This document shows, piece after piece, positions 300-18,199 of a stretch of DNA of 64,000 nucleotides (positions are counted from its first letter, which is position 1; each line of letters opens with the position of its first letter). The notes under the pieces are model-generated. The model had not been told where the DNA came from and searched no databases. It was given only the letters and a program-made list of their open reading frames with translations. The position numbers were made by a program, and so were the translations under genes. This DNA is from a virus. The stretch spans positions 1-64,000 of IMG/VR virus record IMGVR_UViG_3300027782_000047. The stretch is one strand, 5' to 3'.

Positions 300-374
300 G
301 CGGGTATGGTGCTAGTGGTAACACAAGACCTTGCCAAGGTTTAGTTGTGGGTTCGATTCCCACTACCCGCTCCA
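300..374 (+). tRNA. tRNA-Gly (GCC)
   Basis: A full cloverleaf is visible. Acceptor GCGGGTA pairs with TACCCGC (364-370), followed by discriminator U and encoded CCA. The anticodon loop is TTGCCAA, giving GCC. The T-arm loop is TTCGATT. It is the first gene of an eight-gene cluster on the same strand with spacers of about 1 to 21 nt. Confidence 0.95.
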
Positions 375-382
375 GATTTTAT

Positions 383-457
383 GTGGTTGTTAGTTTAGTG
401 GTAAAACCGCGGGTTGTGATTCCGCTATCACGGGTTCGATTCCCGTACATCCACCCA
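383..457 (+). tRNA. tRNA-His (GTG)
   Basis: The anticodon loop TTGTGAT gives GTG. The acceptor stem has the histidine hallmark: an extra 5' G (383) opposite discriminator C454, followed by encoded CCA. There is one U-U mismatch in the acceptor stem (387/450). The T-arm is ACGGG/CCCGT with loop TTCGATT. Confidence 0.93.
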
Positions 458-463
458 ACATAT

Positions 464-538
464 GCCTCGTTAACTCAGCGGTAGAGTAACTCCTTTACAC
501 GGAGAAGGTCGGCAGTTCGATCCTGTCACGAGGTACCA
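464..538 (+). tRNA. tRNA-Val (TAC)
   Basis: Acceptor GCCTCGT pairs with ACGAGGT, followed by discriminator A and CCA. The anticodon loop TTTACAC gives TAC (valine). The anticodon stem CTCC/GGAG and the T-arm GGCAG/CTGTC with loop TTCGATC are intact. Confidence 0.93.
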
Positions 539-544
539 AATTAT

Positions 545-621
545 GCCCAAGTGACGAAATTGGCAAACGTGTCTCTCTCAAAAGGAGAATTTTGTGGGTT
601 CGAATCCCATCTTGGGTACCA
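545..621 (+). tRNA. tRNA-Leu (CAA) with short variable region
   Basis: Acceptor GCCCAAG pairs with CTTGGGT, followed by A and CCA. The anticodon loop CTCAAAA sits on the TCTCT/GGAGA stem and gives CAA (leucine). The D-arm has the three-base-pair stem and long loop usual for bacterial tRNA-Leu. The variable region is only five bases (ATTTT) instead of the long class II arm. The rest of the fold is sound, so I call it a gene with an unusual shape, not a pseudogene. Confidence 0.88.
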
Positions 622-622
622 T

Positions 623-696
623 GCTCTCATAGTATAATGGCATTACACATCCTTGGTAAGGATGAAAACCAAGTTCAATTCTTGGTGGGAGCACCA
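623..696 (+). tRNA. tRNA-Thr (GGT)
   Basis: Acceptor GCTCTCA pairs with TGGGAGC, followed by ACCA. The anticodon loop TTGGTAA on stem CATCC/GGATG gives GGT. The T-arm is CCAAG/CTTGG with loop TTCAATT. It begins one base after the CCA of tRNA-Leu, so processing of the two must be closely linked. Confidence 0.94.
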
Positions 697-700
697 ATAA

Positions 701-776
701 GCCTCTTAAGCTAATCTGGTGAAAGCACTGGACTGAAAATCCAGGGAGTCTGGTTCGAAACCAGAAAGAGGCACCA
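701..776 (+). tRNA. tRNA-Phe (GAA)
   Basis: Acceptor GCCTCTT pairs with AAGAGGC, followed by ACCA. The anticodon loop CTGAAAA on the CTGGA/TCCAG stem gives GAA. The T-arm TCTGG/CCAGA has loop TTCGAAA. Confidence 0.95.
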
Positions 777-781
777 AACAT

Positions 782-858
782 GCGGATGTGATGGAATAGG
801 TATACATATCAGACTTAAAATCTGAGTTCTGTGGGTTCAAGTCCCACCATCCGTACCA
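782..858 (+). tRNA. tRNA-Leu (TAA) with short variable region
   Basis: Acceptor GCGGATG pairs with CATCCGT (G-U first pair), followed by ACCA. The anticodon loop CTTAAAA on stem TCAGA/TCTGA gives TAA. The D-arm is of tRNA-Leu type (ATG/CAT stem, 11-base loop). As in the CAA gene, the long variable arm expected for class II tRNA-Leu is replaced by five bases (GTTCT). Confidence 0.88.
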
Positions 859-879
859 ATATAAACTCTACAAATTTAT

Positions 880-954
880 CTGGCGTTCGTTCAATGGACA
901 GGACAGCATTCTTCTAAAGTGCGAATGGGGGTTCGATTCCCTCACGCCAGGCCA
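880..954 (+). tRNA. tRNA-Arg (TCT)
   Basis: Acceptor CTGGCGT pairs with ACGCCAG, followed by discriminator G and CCA. The anticodon loop CTTCTAA gives TCT, which reads AGA/AGG codons. The T-arm is GGGGG/CCCTC with loop TTCGATT. It is the last gene of the cluster, and its CCA ends next to the stop codon of the antisense gene at 955. Confidence 0.93.
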
Positions 955-3565: not shown

Positions 3566-3868
3566 ATGCCACAAGGTACTTACATACTAATAACAAGCGA
3601 TGGTTACCGTGTAACGCCATTGAATGACTATGGCAGTTTATTTGACGGCTATATGCCAGACATGTCTAGATATTTAAATACTGATAAAGTAGTTGAAGCC
3701 TTTGGTGAATGTCATGTTTTTAAAACACAATCCGAAGCCATAGAAGTTGCACAATCGTTATCAAAAGCATTCCGAGAAACCGAAGATGGTATTCTTGTGA
3801 TGACAGATTATAGAAAATATTCTTTTCAGGAGTTAAAAGATGGTAAAGCCAGCAAGAGTTCGGATTGA
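3566..3868 (+). CDS. 100-residue early protein, unknown
   Basis: The likely start is ATG 3566 (MPQGTYI), two bases after the previous stop; the longer open frame upstream overlaps the 43-residue gene and is not needed. The product has alternating beta segments, a conserved-looking TSDGYRV-TPL segment and a charged C-terminal helix. Its end overlaps the next gene by 29 bases. Function unknown. Confidence 0.7.
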   Translation: MPQGTYILITSDGYRVTPLNDYGSLFDGYMPDMSRYLNTDKVVEAFGECHVFKTQSEAIEVAQSLSKAFRETEDGILVMTDYRKYSFQELKDGKASKSSD

Positions 3869-6420: not shown

Positions 6421-7135
6421 GTGTATTGAATCCGTTGACCGTCAAACATATGATGATTTGACGCATTACGTTTTCATGGATGGTATTCAGTATTGGAAAG
6501 AAATTGATGATATCATTGAAGGTTCTGAAAAAGTCCGTGTAATAAAAATTGAAGAAAATGTAGGCAAAGGATGGTACGGCCATCGTGTTTACTCGGCGTG
6601 TTCATTTTTGGTAAATGCTGATGTAATCATTTACCTTGATGAAGATAATTGGATTGATCCGTGTCACGTTGAAAAACTTGTTAAGGTGATACAAAAAGGA
6701 AATGATTGGGCATATAGCCTTAGAAAGATTTATGATAAAGATGAAAATTTACTATGTGAAGACAATTGCGAAAGTCTTGGAAAGTGGCCTGTTTTCTTTG
6801 ACGAGAAAGTTAACCATATTGATACTTCCAGCTTTGCTATTAAGCGTGATATTGCTGTTCGCATCGGTCATGCATGGTATGGGCAGTGGGGTGCTGATAG
6901 ACAATTTTATCAAGCACTATCAACCCATTTTCCCAATTACGATTGCTCCAATGCACACACTCTATGCTATCGTTTAGATGGCAATCCGAATTCTGTAAAA
7001 GCAGATTTCTTTGAAAGCGGCAACGCTATCAATGCGACAAAATATAATGGAAGTTTCCCATGGAAAAAGAACAAGTTAATGCAAATAGAACCGCGCTCAT
7101 TACCGGTGGGTCAGGTTATCTCGGTTCGCACTTAA
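6371..7135 (+). CDS. Family 2-type glycosyltransferase
   Basis: This GT-A fold enzyme transfers a sugar from a nucleotide donor. The N-terminal segment MKVAVITPTIGTKYL is typical of the family, a D-G segment follows the second strand, and LDEDNW (near residue 86) is the expected metal-binding DXD region. ATG 6371 is preferred over ATG 6365 because AAGG at 6361-6364 is then correctly spaced. The gene overlaps the genes on both sides, by 50 bases upstream and 76 downstream (GalE). With GalE it probably supplies glycosylation of phage DNA, virion or host envelope; the acceptor cannot be told. Confidence 0.85.
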   Translation: MKVAVITPTIGTKYLSKCIESVDRQTYDDLTHYVFMDGIQYWKEIDDIIEGSEKVRVIKIEENVGKGWYGHRVYSACSFLVNADVIIYLDEDNWIDPCHVEKLVKVIQKGNDWAYSLRKIYDKDENLLCEDNCESLGKWPVFFDEKVNHIDTSSFAIKRDIAVRIGHAWYGQWGADRQFYQALSTHFPNYDCSNAHTLCYRLDGNPNSVKADFFESGNAINATKYNGSFPWKKNKLMQIEPRSLPVGQVISVRT

Positions 7136-8025
7136 GCAAAAAACTAAAGCAACAAGGATGGAAAGTCATCATCCTTGACATAAAAGAACCCACACATTCT
7201 TATGTGGATTCATTTTATTGTGGTGACATTCGGCGAAAGTATTTCCTAGAAAGTATTTTTCAAAATCATTTTGTGGATGTTGTATTCCATCTCGCTGGTC
7301 GGATTGAAGTTGGTGAATCAGTAAAAGATCCTACCGAATTTTGGGAAGTCAATGTTGGCGGAACAGTCTCAGTTTTAAATGCGATGAAAAGAAATGGCGT
7401 GAATACAATCATCTTTTCTTCAACTGCGGGTGTCTATTGGTCAGGTGCAATACAAATACCAGAAGATGAATGCACCACAAGCAACAATCCATACAGTAAT
7501 AGTAAAATGTCCTGTGAATATGCTATTGAAGATTCTGGTATGAATTATGTAATTTTTAGGTATTTCAATCTGGCTGGTGCTGATCCTGACGGAGAAATGG
7601 GTGAAAGCCATGAGCCAGAAACGCATCTAATTCCCAGAATTCTACAAAATCTAAATACGGTTGAAGTGTATGGAAATGACTATGACACACCAGATGGAAC
7701 ATGCGTTAGAGATTATGTCCACGTTTGTGATGTTGTTGATGCACACTTAGAAGCGGTAAAATATCTAGACAATTATGGCGAATCTGGAGTTTTTAATCTA
7801 GGTTCAGGAGTTGGTTATAGTGTTCTTGATGTTATAAAAACAGTTGAAAAAGTAAGCAGTAAAAAAGTAAAATATAACATAGTGCCAAGGAGAGAAGGCG
7901 ATCCAAGTCATTTGGTCGCTGATATCACCAAAGCAAAAACCATTTTGAATTTTAATCCAAAACATGATATATCATCCATCATCAAGTCGGCCTATGAGTG
8001 GGAAGAGATTAGGTCAAACACCTGA
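7060..8025 (+). CDS. galE: UDP-glucose 4-epimerase-like NAD-dependent epimerase
   Basis: This is an extended short-chain dehydrogenase/reductase. The Rossmann motif GGSGYLG is near residues 16-22, the catalytic Ser/Thr are in SSTAGVY (120-126), and the YSNSK active-site pair is Tyr145/Lys149. The GalE-type segments VYGNDYDTPDGT and RDYVHV are clear. The length (321) is close to the family norm of about 335. It would interconvert UDP-glucose and UDP-galactose or the N-acetyl forms, feeding the adjacent glycosyltransferase. The 76-base overlap with that gene shows tight coupling. Confidence 0.9.
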   Translation: MEKEQVNANRTALITGGSGYLGSHLSKKLKQQGWKVIILDIKEPTHSYVDSFYCGDIRRKYFLESIFQNHFVDVVFHLAGRIEVGESVKDPTEFWEVNVGGTVSVLNAMKRNGVNTIIFSSTAGVYWSGAIQIPEDECTTSNNPYSNSKMSCEYAIEDSGMNYVIFRYFNLAGADPDGEMGESHEPETHLIPRILQNLNTVEVYGNDYDTPDGTCVRDYVHVCDVVDAHLEAVKYLDNYGESGVFNLGSGVGYSVLDVIKTVEKVSSKKVKYNIVPRREGDPSHLVADITKAKTILNFNPKHDISSIIKSAYEWEEIRSNT

Positions 8026-8578
8026 AGACATACCATTCAACGTTCAAGATAAGTTTGACAATGTATTCCTTGACAATCATATCTTTTTCTTAAGTGGTGA
8101 AATAAATGAAGAAAACATTCTCAAAGCAACACAATGGTTAGTCTATGAGAATGCATACAATGATCCAGAAAAACTTTTACAGTTGTATATCAATTCTACC
8201 GGCGGTGATTTGTATCAAGCACTTGGTTTAATTGATATGATGCGTATTAGTAAAAACAGAATCCGAACAATCGGCGTTGGTGCTGTTATGTCGGCTGCTT
8301 TTCTAATATTTGCATCTGGCGAAAAAGGCGAAAGATTAATTTCCAAAAATTGTAGTTTGATGTGTCACCAGTATTCTGACACCTACGAAGGAAAGCACCA
8401 CGATTTAAAGTCATTCACAAAAGAGGCTGAATTGACTAATCAAAGAATGTTGAATATACTTCAAGAGGCTACGGGCATGAGCGCACGTAATGTTAAGTCC
8501 AAACTTTTATCACCTAGCGATGTTTGGTTGACAGCCGATGAAGTTATTAAACTGGGTGTAGCAGACCGCATTCTTTAA
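7994..8578 (+). CDS. clpP: ClpP-like serine protease
   Basis: This 194-residue ClpP/crotonase-fold protease has the oxyanion-type NSTGGD (67-72), nucleophile Ser100 in GVGAVMSAAF, and His125 in the SLMCHQ segment. These correspond to ClpP's GxASM and MIHQP regions, but both are altered. The C-terminal GVADRIL also matches ClpP. ATG 7994 gives a 32-base overlap with galE; an in-frame ATG at 7964 is possible. It could associate with host ClpX/ClpA or act alone in prohead or host-protein turnover (inference). A tmRNA that tags proteins for ClpXP is encoded further on. Confidence 0.85.
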   Translation: MSGKRLGQTPEDIPFNVQDKFDNVFLDNHIFFLSGEINEENILKATQWLVYENAYNDPEKLLQLYINSTGGDLYQALGLIDMMRISKNRIRTIGVGAVMSAAFLIFASGEKGERLISKNCSLMCHQYSDTYEGKHHDLKSFTKEAELTNQRMLNILQEATGMSARNVKSKLLSPSDVWLTADEVIKLGVADRIL

Positions 8579-13819: not shown

Positions 13820-14488
13820 ATGTTTACGTATTGCCCACCCAAGAAACTAGAAGACTTAAAATCAGAAACACTAGAGAATGGAAGATTTTATGTAACGCCA
13901 GATGGTAAAAGATTACCATCGGTAACAACCGTCTTGGGTGCAATGGGCAAGAAAGCTATCTATGAATGGCGACAACGTGTTGGTGCAGAGGAAGCAAATC
14001 GTATTTCACGGATTGCTTCTGGTCGTGGTACACGTATGCATACGCTATGCGAAAAGTATTTGAACAATCAAGAGTTGGGCAAACCAATGCCTGATGCGCT
14101 GGAATTATTTAAAAAGGTACAACCATATCTAAATAAAATCAACAACATTCAGTATCAAGAATGTGCATTGTGGTCAACAAAACTTGGCATGGCTGGGCGT
14201 GTAGATTGTATTGCGGAATATGATGGTGTTCTTTCTGTCATTGATTTTAAAACATCCAGCAGAGTGAAAACTGCGGAAGATATTCCTGCATATTTTGCTC
14301 AATGTACCGCTTATGCATTGATGTATGAAGAATTGATTGGTGTAAGAATTGACCAAATAGTTGTTATCATGGCTGTACAGGAAGATAACCCAATCATCTT
14401 TATTGAACCAATGAGAAAACATATAAATACTTTACTAGAGTACATTAGTTTTTATCGTGAAAAAAACAATTATTACCTGACAAACTAG
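13820..14488 (+). CDS. PD-(D/E)XK exonuclease
   Basis: This 222-residue protein has a RecB/Cas4-type nuclease core. SVTTVLGAM is near the start, followed by the SGRGTRMHTLCEKYL helix, then the acidic GRVDCIAEYDG and the catalytic VIDFKTS (D-x-K). A Q-TAYALMYEEL helix (QxxxY-like) completes it. There is no cysteine cluster for an Fe-S site. It probably acts in recombination-dependent replication or host DNA degradation. The stop is followed by the tmRNA promoter. Confidence 0.87.
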   Translation: MFTYCPPKKLEDLKSETLENGRFYVTPDGKRLPSVTTVLGAMGKKAIYEWRQRVGAEEANRISRIASGRGTRMHTLCEKYLNNQELGKPMPDALELFKKVQPYLNKINNIQYQECALWSTKLGMAGRVDCIAEYDGVLSVIDFKTSSRVKTAEDIPAYFAQCTAYALMYEELIGVRIDQIVVIMAVQEDNPIIFIEPMRKHINTLLEYISFYREKNNYYLTN

Positions 14489-14505
14489 TTTTGTTGTGTT
14501 ATAAT
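14477..14505 (+). promoter_or_regulatory. Promoter of the tmRNA gene
   Basis: CTGACA (14477-14482), 17-base spacer, TGT-TATAAT (14500-14505). The -35 overlaps the end of the nuclease gene. Predicted +1 is about 14512, at the start of the tmRNA acceptor piece. Confidence 0.8.
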
Positions 14506-14511
14506 TAGTGT

Positions 14512-14806
14512 TATTGCTGTATGAAGCAAAGAGAAAAGTGTTCTGGACGGGGGTGCGAATCCCCCCACCTCCACCAGAAGTGCATGTATTAGATGAAAGA
14601 AACCATTTTATGGGCTCTAATGGGTGTGCTTCTGATGGGGGTGACCTAGATTCGACAGGGCAACAAGTACATGCGTGGACAGCACGGTAGGCGATGACCG
14701 TAAATCAAGCAAAAAAGTAAACGCAAACGACTCACGTTTCGAATTGGCAGCCTAAACGCTGACTAGGGTTTCGGTAGGTTTCCTCGTAACAGAATAACCT
14801 ACCAAT
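14512..14806 (+). ncRNA. ssrA: Circularly permuted (two-piece) tmRNA
   Basis: The tRNA-like 3' part comes first. T-arm GGGGG/CCCCC with loop TGCGAAT (14549-14565) is followed by CACCTCC, A and encoded CCA (14566-14576). The 5' end GGGGGTG (14637-14643) lies downstream and pairs perfectly with CACCTCC. The third pair is G-U, the alanine identity element. The bases between (14577-14636) fold into a long hairpin (AGAAGTGCA/TGTGCTTCT, ATTAGA/TCTAAT, CCAT/ATGG) suited to excision. The tag frame starts at resume codon GCA 14723 and reads ANDSRFELAA then TAA (14753-14755). A GGTAGGTT/AACCTACC hairpin (14773-14803) closes the coding piece. It rescues stalled ribosomes and tags nascent chains for proteolysis. 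Exact 5' and 3' ends are estimates. Confidence 0.93.
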
Positions 14807-14827
14807 TTATTAACAAGGAGTTTTATT

Positions 14828-15364
14828 TTGAAGAAAATAGCAATCGCAAGTTTAATTGCAATCGCAACTGCCGCGCAAGCCGGTGGTTTTGTTTCGTATG
14901 GTGTTGACCAAGTTACTGACCGTGTAAGTAACAAACAGAGTATCGCACAGTATGTCCGTGCTGGTACTTCATTAGGTGGTTTGAATCTTGGATTACAAAA
15001 TCGTAATGCTCGTACCAATGACAACCAATCTATGTTCAATAGTTTGGAACTTACCGCAGGTAAAACAGTTTTTGGTATCAACCCATTCGTTGGCGTTGGT
15101 TTTGATAATGGCGGTGATGGCGCAAAGCCATATGAGTATGGTCTAGTTGGCGCAAACGCTGGTGTTAAAGTAGGTCCTGGTTATGCCATGGCTGGTGTTA
15201 AGACCCGTGTAAATTGGAACAGCGCAAATCCAAAACAATCTGTAGCCTTTGTTAGCTATGACATGCCAGTCATCAGCAAAGTATCTGTTGGTTTGGGTGT
15301 TAGCCAAAGCTATCAAGACATTCAGGATCGTGCAGTTGGACTTACAGTTTCTGTAGGATTCTAA
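14828..15364 (+). CDS. Secreted outer-membrane beta-barrel-like protein
   Basis: The start is TTG 14828, set by AAGGAG at 14815-14820. A signal peptide (MKKIAIASLIAIATAAQA, cleavage after residue 18) precedes about 160 residues of short alternating strands rich in Gly, Val, Tyr and Asn. The protein ends in a strand with terminal Phe (LTVSVGF), the usual BAM-recognition signature of outer-membrane proteins. Its size fits an eight-stranded barrel. In a phage it may block the receptor (superinfection exclusion) or change host envelope permeability (inference). It sits directly behind the tmRNA hairpin, and no separate promoter is evident. Confidence 0.8.
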   Translation: MKKIAIASLIAIATAAQAGGFVSYGVDQVTDRVSNKQSIAQYVRAGTSLGGLNLGLQNRNARTNDNQSMFNSLELTAGKTVFGINPFVGVGFDNGGDGAKPYEYGLVGANAGVKVGPGYAMAGVKTRVNWNSANPKQSVAFVSYDMPVISKVSVGLGVSQSYQDIQDRAVGLTVSVGF

Positions 15365-17248: not shown

Positions 17249-18199
17249 ATGATGAAAAAACTTTTAGTAACCTTATTAACTGCAACTGCTATGGCTGTTC
17301 AAGCCTGGACTCCCACGAAGCCTATTGTAGTTGTTTTGCCTAATTCACCTGGTGCAGGTAATGAAATTGCATTTAGAATTTTGGCTAAACAAGTGGAAGA
17401 AAAAACTGGCGCAAACTTTGTTTTTGATTATCGCCCAGGTGCTGATGGTACAGTGGCTATGAATCACTTTAATACACTACAAGCGGATGGTCACCACGTG
17501 GCTGTTCCTGGTTGTCAAAGTACATATGTAACGTCTGAGATATGGTATGCACACAATACAAAATTCAATGCTATGGATTTTGTACCAGTCACTAACATAG
17601 GCAAAAGTCCTTTAGGTTTTTATGCAAGAGCATCATCTAATATTGATACACCAGAAAAACTAATTGCTGAAATTAAGTCTGGACAAAAACAAATGAACTT
17701 TGCTGTAGGCGGCGCAGGGCACAAATTAGCTGTGGAGTATATGATATCTACAATTCAACCTGCAATCAATAATGTGCAATCTATAATGTATAAAGGTCCA
17801 GCGCAAGCTATGAATGATGTTGTGTCTGGGCATGTTGAGTTTGGCGTATTTCCTATAGCTGTGGGTGCGCCATTGATAAAGTCTGGCAAAATCAAATTGA
17901 TTGGAATTGCTGGAGAACAATCTATGCCCGGTCTAGAAAAAGCCAAGCTGATGAAAGATTATGTTCGTAATTTAAATGTGTATGCTTGTTGGAACTTAAT
18001 TTTGCCAAAAAACACTCCACAAGATATTCAAGACTGGTATCGTAATGCATTTATTCCTGCTTTAAATTCAAAAGAAACAAAATCATCCTATGATGAACAA
18101 TTTATCTTCATCAGTAAAAATGAACAAACTCCACAAGGAGTACATGCGACTATGCATAGACTGCGTGAACAATGGCAACCATTCGCAAGAAAAAACTAA
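17249..18199 (+). CDS. Bug/TctC-family periplasmic solute-binding protein
   Basis: This 316-residue protein begins with a signal peptide (cleavage after AVQA, residue 19). The mature protein has the Bug/TctC landmarks: WTPTKPIVVVLPNSPGAGNE (substrate-loop region), then a YRPGADGTVA segment corresponding to the family N-RPGA-G. GHKLAVEYM, YKGPAQAMNDVVSGHVEFGVF and IKSGKIKLIGIAGE follow. The length fits the family (about 320). These proteins bind carboxylates for the tripartite tricarboxylate transporter or work as orphan sensors, and are hugely expanded in betaproteobacteria. It was probably acquired from a host. It may capture a nutrient for the infected cell or have been recruited for another periplasmic role. 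Confidence 0.9.
   Translation: MMKKLLVTLLTATAMAVQAWTPTKPIVVVLPNSPGAGNEIAFRILAKQVEEKTGANFVFDYRPGADGTVAMNHFNTLQADGHHVAVPGCQSTYVTSEIWYAHNTKFNAMDFVPVTNIGKSPLGFYARASSNIDTPEKLIAEIKSGQKQMNFAVGGAGHKLAVEYMISTIQPAINNVQSIMYKGPAQAMNDVVSGHVEFGVFPIAVGAPLIKSGKIKLIGIAGEQSMPGLEKAKLMKDYVRNLNVYACWNLILPKNTPQDIQDWYRNAFIPALNSKETKSSYDEQFIFISKNEQTPQGVHATMHRLREQWQPFARKN

Follow-up and report, generated by a model that had tools for sequence, protein, structure and literature searches.

Two-piece tmRNA genes carried by phages have been known since 2022, when Buchholz et al. (PMC9004378) reported 402 phages with tmRNA among 18,146 genomes. Of the 133 unique structures, 53 were two-piece tmRNAs of isolate phages, with the Methylophilales phage Melnitz and the Pelagibacter phage Mosig as examples. 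We find such genes to be common in IMG/VR as well. A further kind of phage molecule, the tRNA-like-only (TLD-only) tmRNA, is encoded by mycobacteriophage DS6A, and molecules of this kind inhibit tmRNA (PMC4131195, PMC11915505). As for the sequence that lies between the two pieces, a tmRNA database paper from 2025 described permuted tmRNAs with extra sequence there, one record having a tRNA gene and a second one a repeat (PMC11915505). Our literature search of open-licence papers found no report of protein genes inside this segment.

Here we analyze a stretch of 64,000 nucleotides, termed the window, which is part of a 108,667-base IMG/VR virus record (IMGVR_UViG_3300027782_000047) and belongs to the contig of a T4-like aquatic phage. 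The close relatives of its permuted tmRNA show a freely exchanged middle piece that frequently contains the gene of a small protein, which appears to be new.

A Permuted tmRNA Gene of the Betaproteobacterial Type

An initial annotation made from the letters alone had proposed that the phage encodes a permuted tmRNA with a tag of its own, and this was confirmed. ARAGORN reported window 14484-14846 as a permuted tmRNA with the tag ANDSRFELAA, and both Rfam covariance models tmRNA_permuted (RF04321; 142.8 bits against a cut-off of 47, E 4e-28) and beta_tmRNA (RF01850; 135.5 bits against a cut-off of 84, E 3e-41) matched over their full length, these models carrying no pseudoknots. RF01850 was the match kept for the clan among the alpha, beta and cyano tmRNA models, bearing out the betaproteobacterial-type architecture that had been suspected. 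The order of the parts is permuted according to ARAGORN and RF04321, with the CCA-end piece encoded 5′ of the mRNA-like piece.

All parts lie on the plus strand. The strong promoter claimed for the gene is a near-consensus sigma-70-type element, CTGACA-17-TATAAT with an extended −10 (TG), at 14477-14505 (11 of 12 positions matching). In the Rfam alignments, the acceptor or 3′ piece (14515-14576) is made up of a P2 strand, the T-arm (14549-14565), the acceptor strand CACCTCC (14566-14572), A73 and the CCA end (14574-14576). It is followed by an intervening sequence of 60 nt without an ORF (14577-14636), which is presumably cut out, and by the mRNA-like or 5′ piece (14637-14806), assigned by ARAGORN, Rfam and covariation and containing a TTCGAC motif, the partner strand of P2, the tag and a 3′ domain. 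This piece opens with the acceptor strand GGGGGTG (14637-14643), which pairs fully with CACCTCC and includes the G3-U70 pair; the positions first given for the acceptor halves and the tag all check in the sequence. The tag frame runs from GCA to the TAA stop at 14723-14755 (ARAGORN), and the 3′ domain contains a covarying hairpin at 14773-14803 (GGTAGGTT/AACCTACC) with no T run after it. The acceptor stem and the intervening segment fold together into one hairpin of −38 kcal/mol (z = −6.95 against shuffles), in agreement with the single long hairpin that had been described.

Genome Setting

The contig carries T4-type genes for a gp32-like single-strand DNA-binding protein, a gp33-like late-promoter regulator, a baseplate wedge subunit and a T4-type RNase H, and eight tRNA genes are clustered at the start of the window (300-954). 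Directly upstream of the tmRNA lies a PD-(D/E)XK exonuclease gene (13820-14488, plus strand; PF12705, phrog_298), whose 3′ end overlaps the tmRNA promoter and which occupies the same side in most relatives and in Mosig; a PhoH gene is also among the upstream neighbours. Downstream, a gene at 14828-15364 (plus strand) is predicted to encode a 10-strand outer-membrane beta-barrel with a signal peptide (AlphaFold2 pLDDT 82; Foldseek matches to transmembrane barrels). It starts 24 nt past the last tmRNA hairpin behind a Shine-Dalgarno sequence, AAGGAG (14815-14820), and read-through from the tmRNA is likely, because no terminator-like site was found between the two. Many IMG/VR loci repeat the order exonuclease, tmRNA, (barrel), gp33, gp32, and in most loci found with the barrel gene it is linked to a permuted tmRNA, usually standing directly downstream. 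The barrel gene is 93-97% identical between phages whose exonucleases are only about 60% identical, as if barrel gene and permuted tmRNA moved together.

As for the host, a gene for a TctC/Bug-type tricarboxylate-binding receptor with a signal-like start (17249-18199; PF03401) has relatives in one other record only of the isolate phage collection, and shares about 27% identity with Cupriavidus, Comamonas and Rhizobium plasmid genes, which hints faintly at a betaproteobacterial host. Pattern scans of bacterial genomes gave no match to an ANDSRF-type tag, nor to a beta-type permuted gene under a pattern whose required CCA and spacing are possibly unfit for bacterial genes.

Relatives and Selection on the RNA

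Searching IMG/VR with a T-arm and acceptor pattern yielded at least 119 loci, and among those listed ARAGORN assigned about 90 as permuted and about 16 as standard tmRNAs, so that IMG/VR holds at least about 90 related permuted copies; further loci were gathered through gp32, ClpP and barrel-gene searches. The acceptor strands pair at 7 of 7 positions in all 89 copies examined (57 distinct intervening segments), in six covarying forms and with G3-U70 in every one, which exceeds the requirement of the search filter for at least five of seven pairs. In 60 distinct mature sequences, compensatory changes are numerous in the P2 pairs between the two pieces and unpaired positions are rare there, and the hairpin 3′ of the tag covaries with synonymous alanine codons (GCA/TGC, GCG/CGC, GCC/GGC). 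Among 54 distinct copies with a 10-residue tag the AN start and the AA end are invariant, position 8 is L or I, and positions 4 and 5 vary freely; the (L/I)AA end is kept in all 54 while synonymous codons differ at positions 8-10. The E that replaces A at position 7 of the window tag occurs in only a few copies. A promoter with at least 10 of 12 matches is present in 45% of 60 distinct upstream regions compared with 3% of shuffles, mostly at one fixed distance, and the window promoter is 97-100% conserved in most close relatives. The covariation, combined with an (L/I)AA tag end whose synonymous codons are free, argues that the window-type tmRNA is under functional selection, and on these comparisons the pattern fits a functional RNA whose tag is translated and not a passenger.

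Individual loci depart from this picture in different ways. One relative (L148) shows a double compensatory change in the acceptor stem, from CACCTCC/GGGGGTG to CAGGTCC/GGGCCTG, while the rest of both pieces is about 97% identical to the window type; here the tmRNA (near 3614) lies elsewhere in the genome behind another promoter region (CATAAATAA) that resembles a T4 late promoter. At L107 (near 1363-1714) the acceptor halves are mismatched (CACCTCC with GGGCCTG) and the intervening ORF extends into the 5′ piece, which suggests either recombination between two alleles or a chimeric assembly. At L251 (contig IMGVR_UViG_3300008120_002492, near 6900-7070) promoter and acceptor piece have been lost through a deletion that begins at the end of the exonuclease gene and extends into the intervening segment, while the mRNA-like piece is still there. 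Given these last two loci, the tmRNA gene would not be indispensable to the phages, unless both are assembly errors.

The Intervening Segment as an Exchangeable Slot

We compared 14 relatives, most of which show 90-100% identity in the exonuclease and barrel flanks. Identity is 97-100% for the acceptor piece of all 14 and for the 5′ piece of 13, the exception being L256 with 82%, whereas the segment from CCA to G1 is unrelated in most of them, with 45-54% identity and a different length. Across the family, the ends of a segment are complementary to each other, with a mean of −10.3 kcal/mol for own ends versus −4.0 for mixed ends. As judged from these comparisons, the intervening segment is a disposable slot that is swapped wholesale between close relatives.

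In many segments an ORF starts 10-22 nt past the CCA, often behind an AAGGA-like sequence, and stops at most one base from the segment end. Such filling ORFs encode 52 aa (11 loci), 41 aa (five), 26 aa (four), 62 aa, 42 aa or 32 aa; ORFs of 73 and 35 aa stop 12 nt before the end, and others of 50 and 47 aa are present as well. Shuffled segments seldom hold a filling ORF (a fraction of 0 to 0.03), and some long segments have none (L072, L101, L194, L043). The 73-aa ORF has matches among phage protein families (phrog_419, E 1e-11), and two of the 26-aa ORFs (L054 and L092) lack a clear coding signature on pairwise comparison. Besides the 52-aa gene, small ORFs of unrelated kinds fill the segments of further loci, several having one membrane-like stretch (L025, L032, L070, L084, L102; L054, L091, L121, L092; L113; L206; L281; L290; L078; L083, L119; L053), and one 71-nt segment (L263 type) is tRNA-like in look.

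The 52-aa protein has 34 related loci in IMG/VR and its gene is found in three positions: inside the intervening segment (L298-L307, L310, L315, L316, L325), just upstream of a permuted tmRNA (L313, L314, L326, L329) and free-standing (L320-L324, L327). Nested copies lie at 1501-1656 or 1501-1644 of their loci (129-284 in L300), and the tmRNAs that enclose them score 91-139 bits. Two nested copies, L298 and L310, differ by 15 synonymous and four non-synonymous changes (dN/dS 0.04), with the opposite seen in the other two frames, and dN/dS over the family ranges from 0.04 to 0.2, a codon pattern that indicates purifying selection. In the predicted fold, the ribosome-binding site of the nested gene sits in the stem joining the segment ends, and for this reason folding of the precursor could limit translation of the nested gene. 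A separate arrangement is seen at L311 (1480-2037), where a 52-aa-type ORF stands between ACCATAAGGA and a degenerate 5′ end, and a permuted tmRNA is matched just downstream; this may be a duplicated tmRNA.

Taken together, the slot of these phage two-piece tmRNAs probably carries cargo. Close relatives have it replaced as a whole, and many phages would have a small protein gene there that extends from a Shine-Dalgarno-like site just past the CCA to a stop close to the start of the mRNA-like piece; the Shine-Dalgarno would lie in the end-joining stem, and the 52-aa gene occurs outside tmRNAs too. The precursor would then serve in two ways, as an RNA gene and as mRNA for a small phage protein.

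Proposed Working and Alternative Explanations

The window gene is probably a working phage copy of a betaproteobacterial-type two-piece tmRNA. Judging from its promoter, host RNA polymerase would transcribe a single precursor, from which host tRNA-processing enzymes would free the 60-nt hairpin between CCA and G1. The acceptor piece and the mRNA-like piece would stay joined by the acceptor and P2 helices, whose pairing is documented by covariation. Host alanyl-tRNA synthetase, EF-Tu and SmpB would load the two-piece RNA onto stalled ribosomes, and the ribosome would append ANDSRFELAA, whose LAA end would direct the product to ClpXP, perhaps with the phage ClpP helping. The likely benefit is that ribosomes stay available as the mRNAs of host and phage are degraded in the course of lytic growth, and the slot between CCA and G1 would be disposable, small protein genes standing there in many close relatives. 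On this proposal the phage would take over ribosome rescue and the turnover of tagged proteins.

As for the protein partners, SmpB was found neither in the phage record of the window nor in any of 34 related records, which are possibly incomplete, while control genomes were matched by the same search; host SmpB would be needed, since the phage record lacks it. A ClpP-like protease had been noted near the tmRNA by the initial annotation, and the gene is real (7964-8578, plus strand; PF00574, 115 bits), with the catalytic Ser, His and Asp kept in alignment with solved ClpP structures (PDB), but it lies about 5.9 kb upstream. ClpP was found in 24 of the 34 tmRNA-type records, again possibly incomplete and partly picked by ClpP or gp32, and, within that set, in nine of the 16 permuted-tmRNA records picked by the tmRNA pattern alone, three of the nine being weak; in relatives the gene is often 2-6 kb from the tmRNA. 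Among isolate phages, the window ClpP finds 387 records, mostly actinophage and other head proteases, and gp32 finds 2,419 T4-like records, and on this rough baseline ClpP looks rare in isolate T4-like phages. A role for ClpP as head protease of the window phage was rejected, as a separate gp21-type prohead protease (Peptidase_S77) is encoded at 80807-81256 of the record.

The phage ClpP suggests another course for the tagged products, which we regard as rather unlikely: phage tag and phage ClpP could form a separate turnover route to a phage-modified Clp protease, with tag changes such as the E at position 7 altering the adaptor or the choice between ClpA and ClpX. The intact catalytic residues of an enzyme distinct from the head protease, its frequency and its closeness to the tmRNA in relatives would suit such a route, as would the tag differences at positions 4, 5 and 7 among phages whose flanks are nearly identical, but the tag ends remain (L/I)AA as in bacteria, and ten of the 34 records, a set picked partly by ClpP or gp32, are without ClpP. 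It is improbable that the RNA serves as a decoy, one that would block trans-translation in the host by binding its SmpB or alanyl-tRNA synthetase and would not itself carry out the process. The inhibitory DS6A type is a precedent for such a role, but a decoy would need none of the intact tag frame, resume codon and stop of the window gene, and it would not need a tag end conserved as amino acids despite synonymous codon drift. Least credible of all is a functionless passenger, either a host tmRNA gained by recombination or the remnant of an attachment site, for which one could cite the mosaic exchange of tmRNA parts and adjacent genes and their occasional loss, but which is contradicted by the covariation, the tag conservation, the gene's own promoter, the recurrence of its position across a large T4-like phage clade and the lack of any integrase family match in the whole phage record, a lack on which the tmRNA as an attachment site was also rejected.

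The comparisons show that a complete and selected ribosome-rescue RNA is retained by a large group of aquatic T4-like phages, often alongside a ClpP. These phages apparently depend on the host for SmpB, and the part played by trans-translation in phages can now be tested. The exchangeable segment and the genes nested in it amount to a natural experiment on how much a two-piece tmRNA can accommodate between its CCA and 5′ ends, and the nested genes suggest a way for one precursor to yield an RNA gene and a protein gene.

Comparison with Known Systems

DS6A and the window phage both encode a tmRNA-like RNA, but the DS6A tmRNA has no tag, whereas in the window gene the tRNA-like domain is accompanied by a complete tag frame. 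Compared with the betaproteobacterial permuted tmRNAs of RF01850, the order of parts, acceptor sequence, tag length and 3′ domain are the same, and the window copy differs in being phage-borne; in the permuted tmRNAs of Cupriavidus and Pandoraea plasmids the intervening segments measure 31-32 nt, against 60 nt in the window and up to 248 nt in phages. Melnitz, Mosig and the window phage share a permuted tmRNA in a lytic T4-like myophage, and Mosig also has a homologous PD-(D/E)XK exonuclease 5′ of its tmRNA, with 43% identity to that of the window. The tmRNAs of Melnitz and Mosig are of the alphaproteobacterial type, and their 3′ part has been reported to contain a glutamine riboswitch (PMC9004378), whereas the tmRNA of the window is of the beta type; the Mosig tag is GEDNFALAA as opposed to ANDSRFELAA, and the window genome differs from both phages in having ClpP and the linked outer-membrane barrel gene. 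Finally, the cases in the 2025 database paper (PMC11915505), like the phage family, show that the intervening sequence can house extra sequence, but in place of a tRNA gene or a repeat the phage family has protein ORFs, of many unrelated kinds and with precise boundaries.
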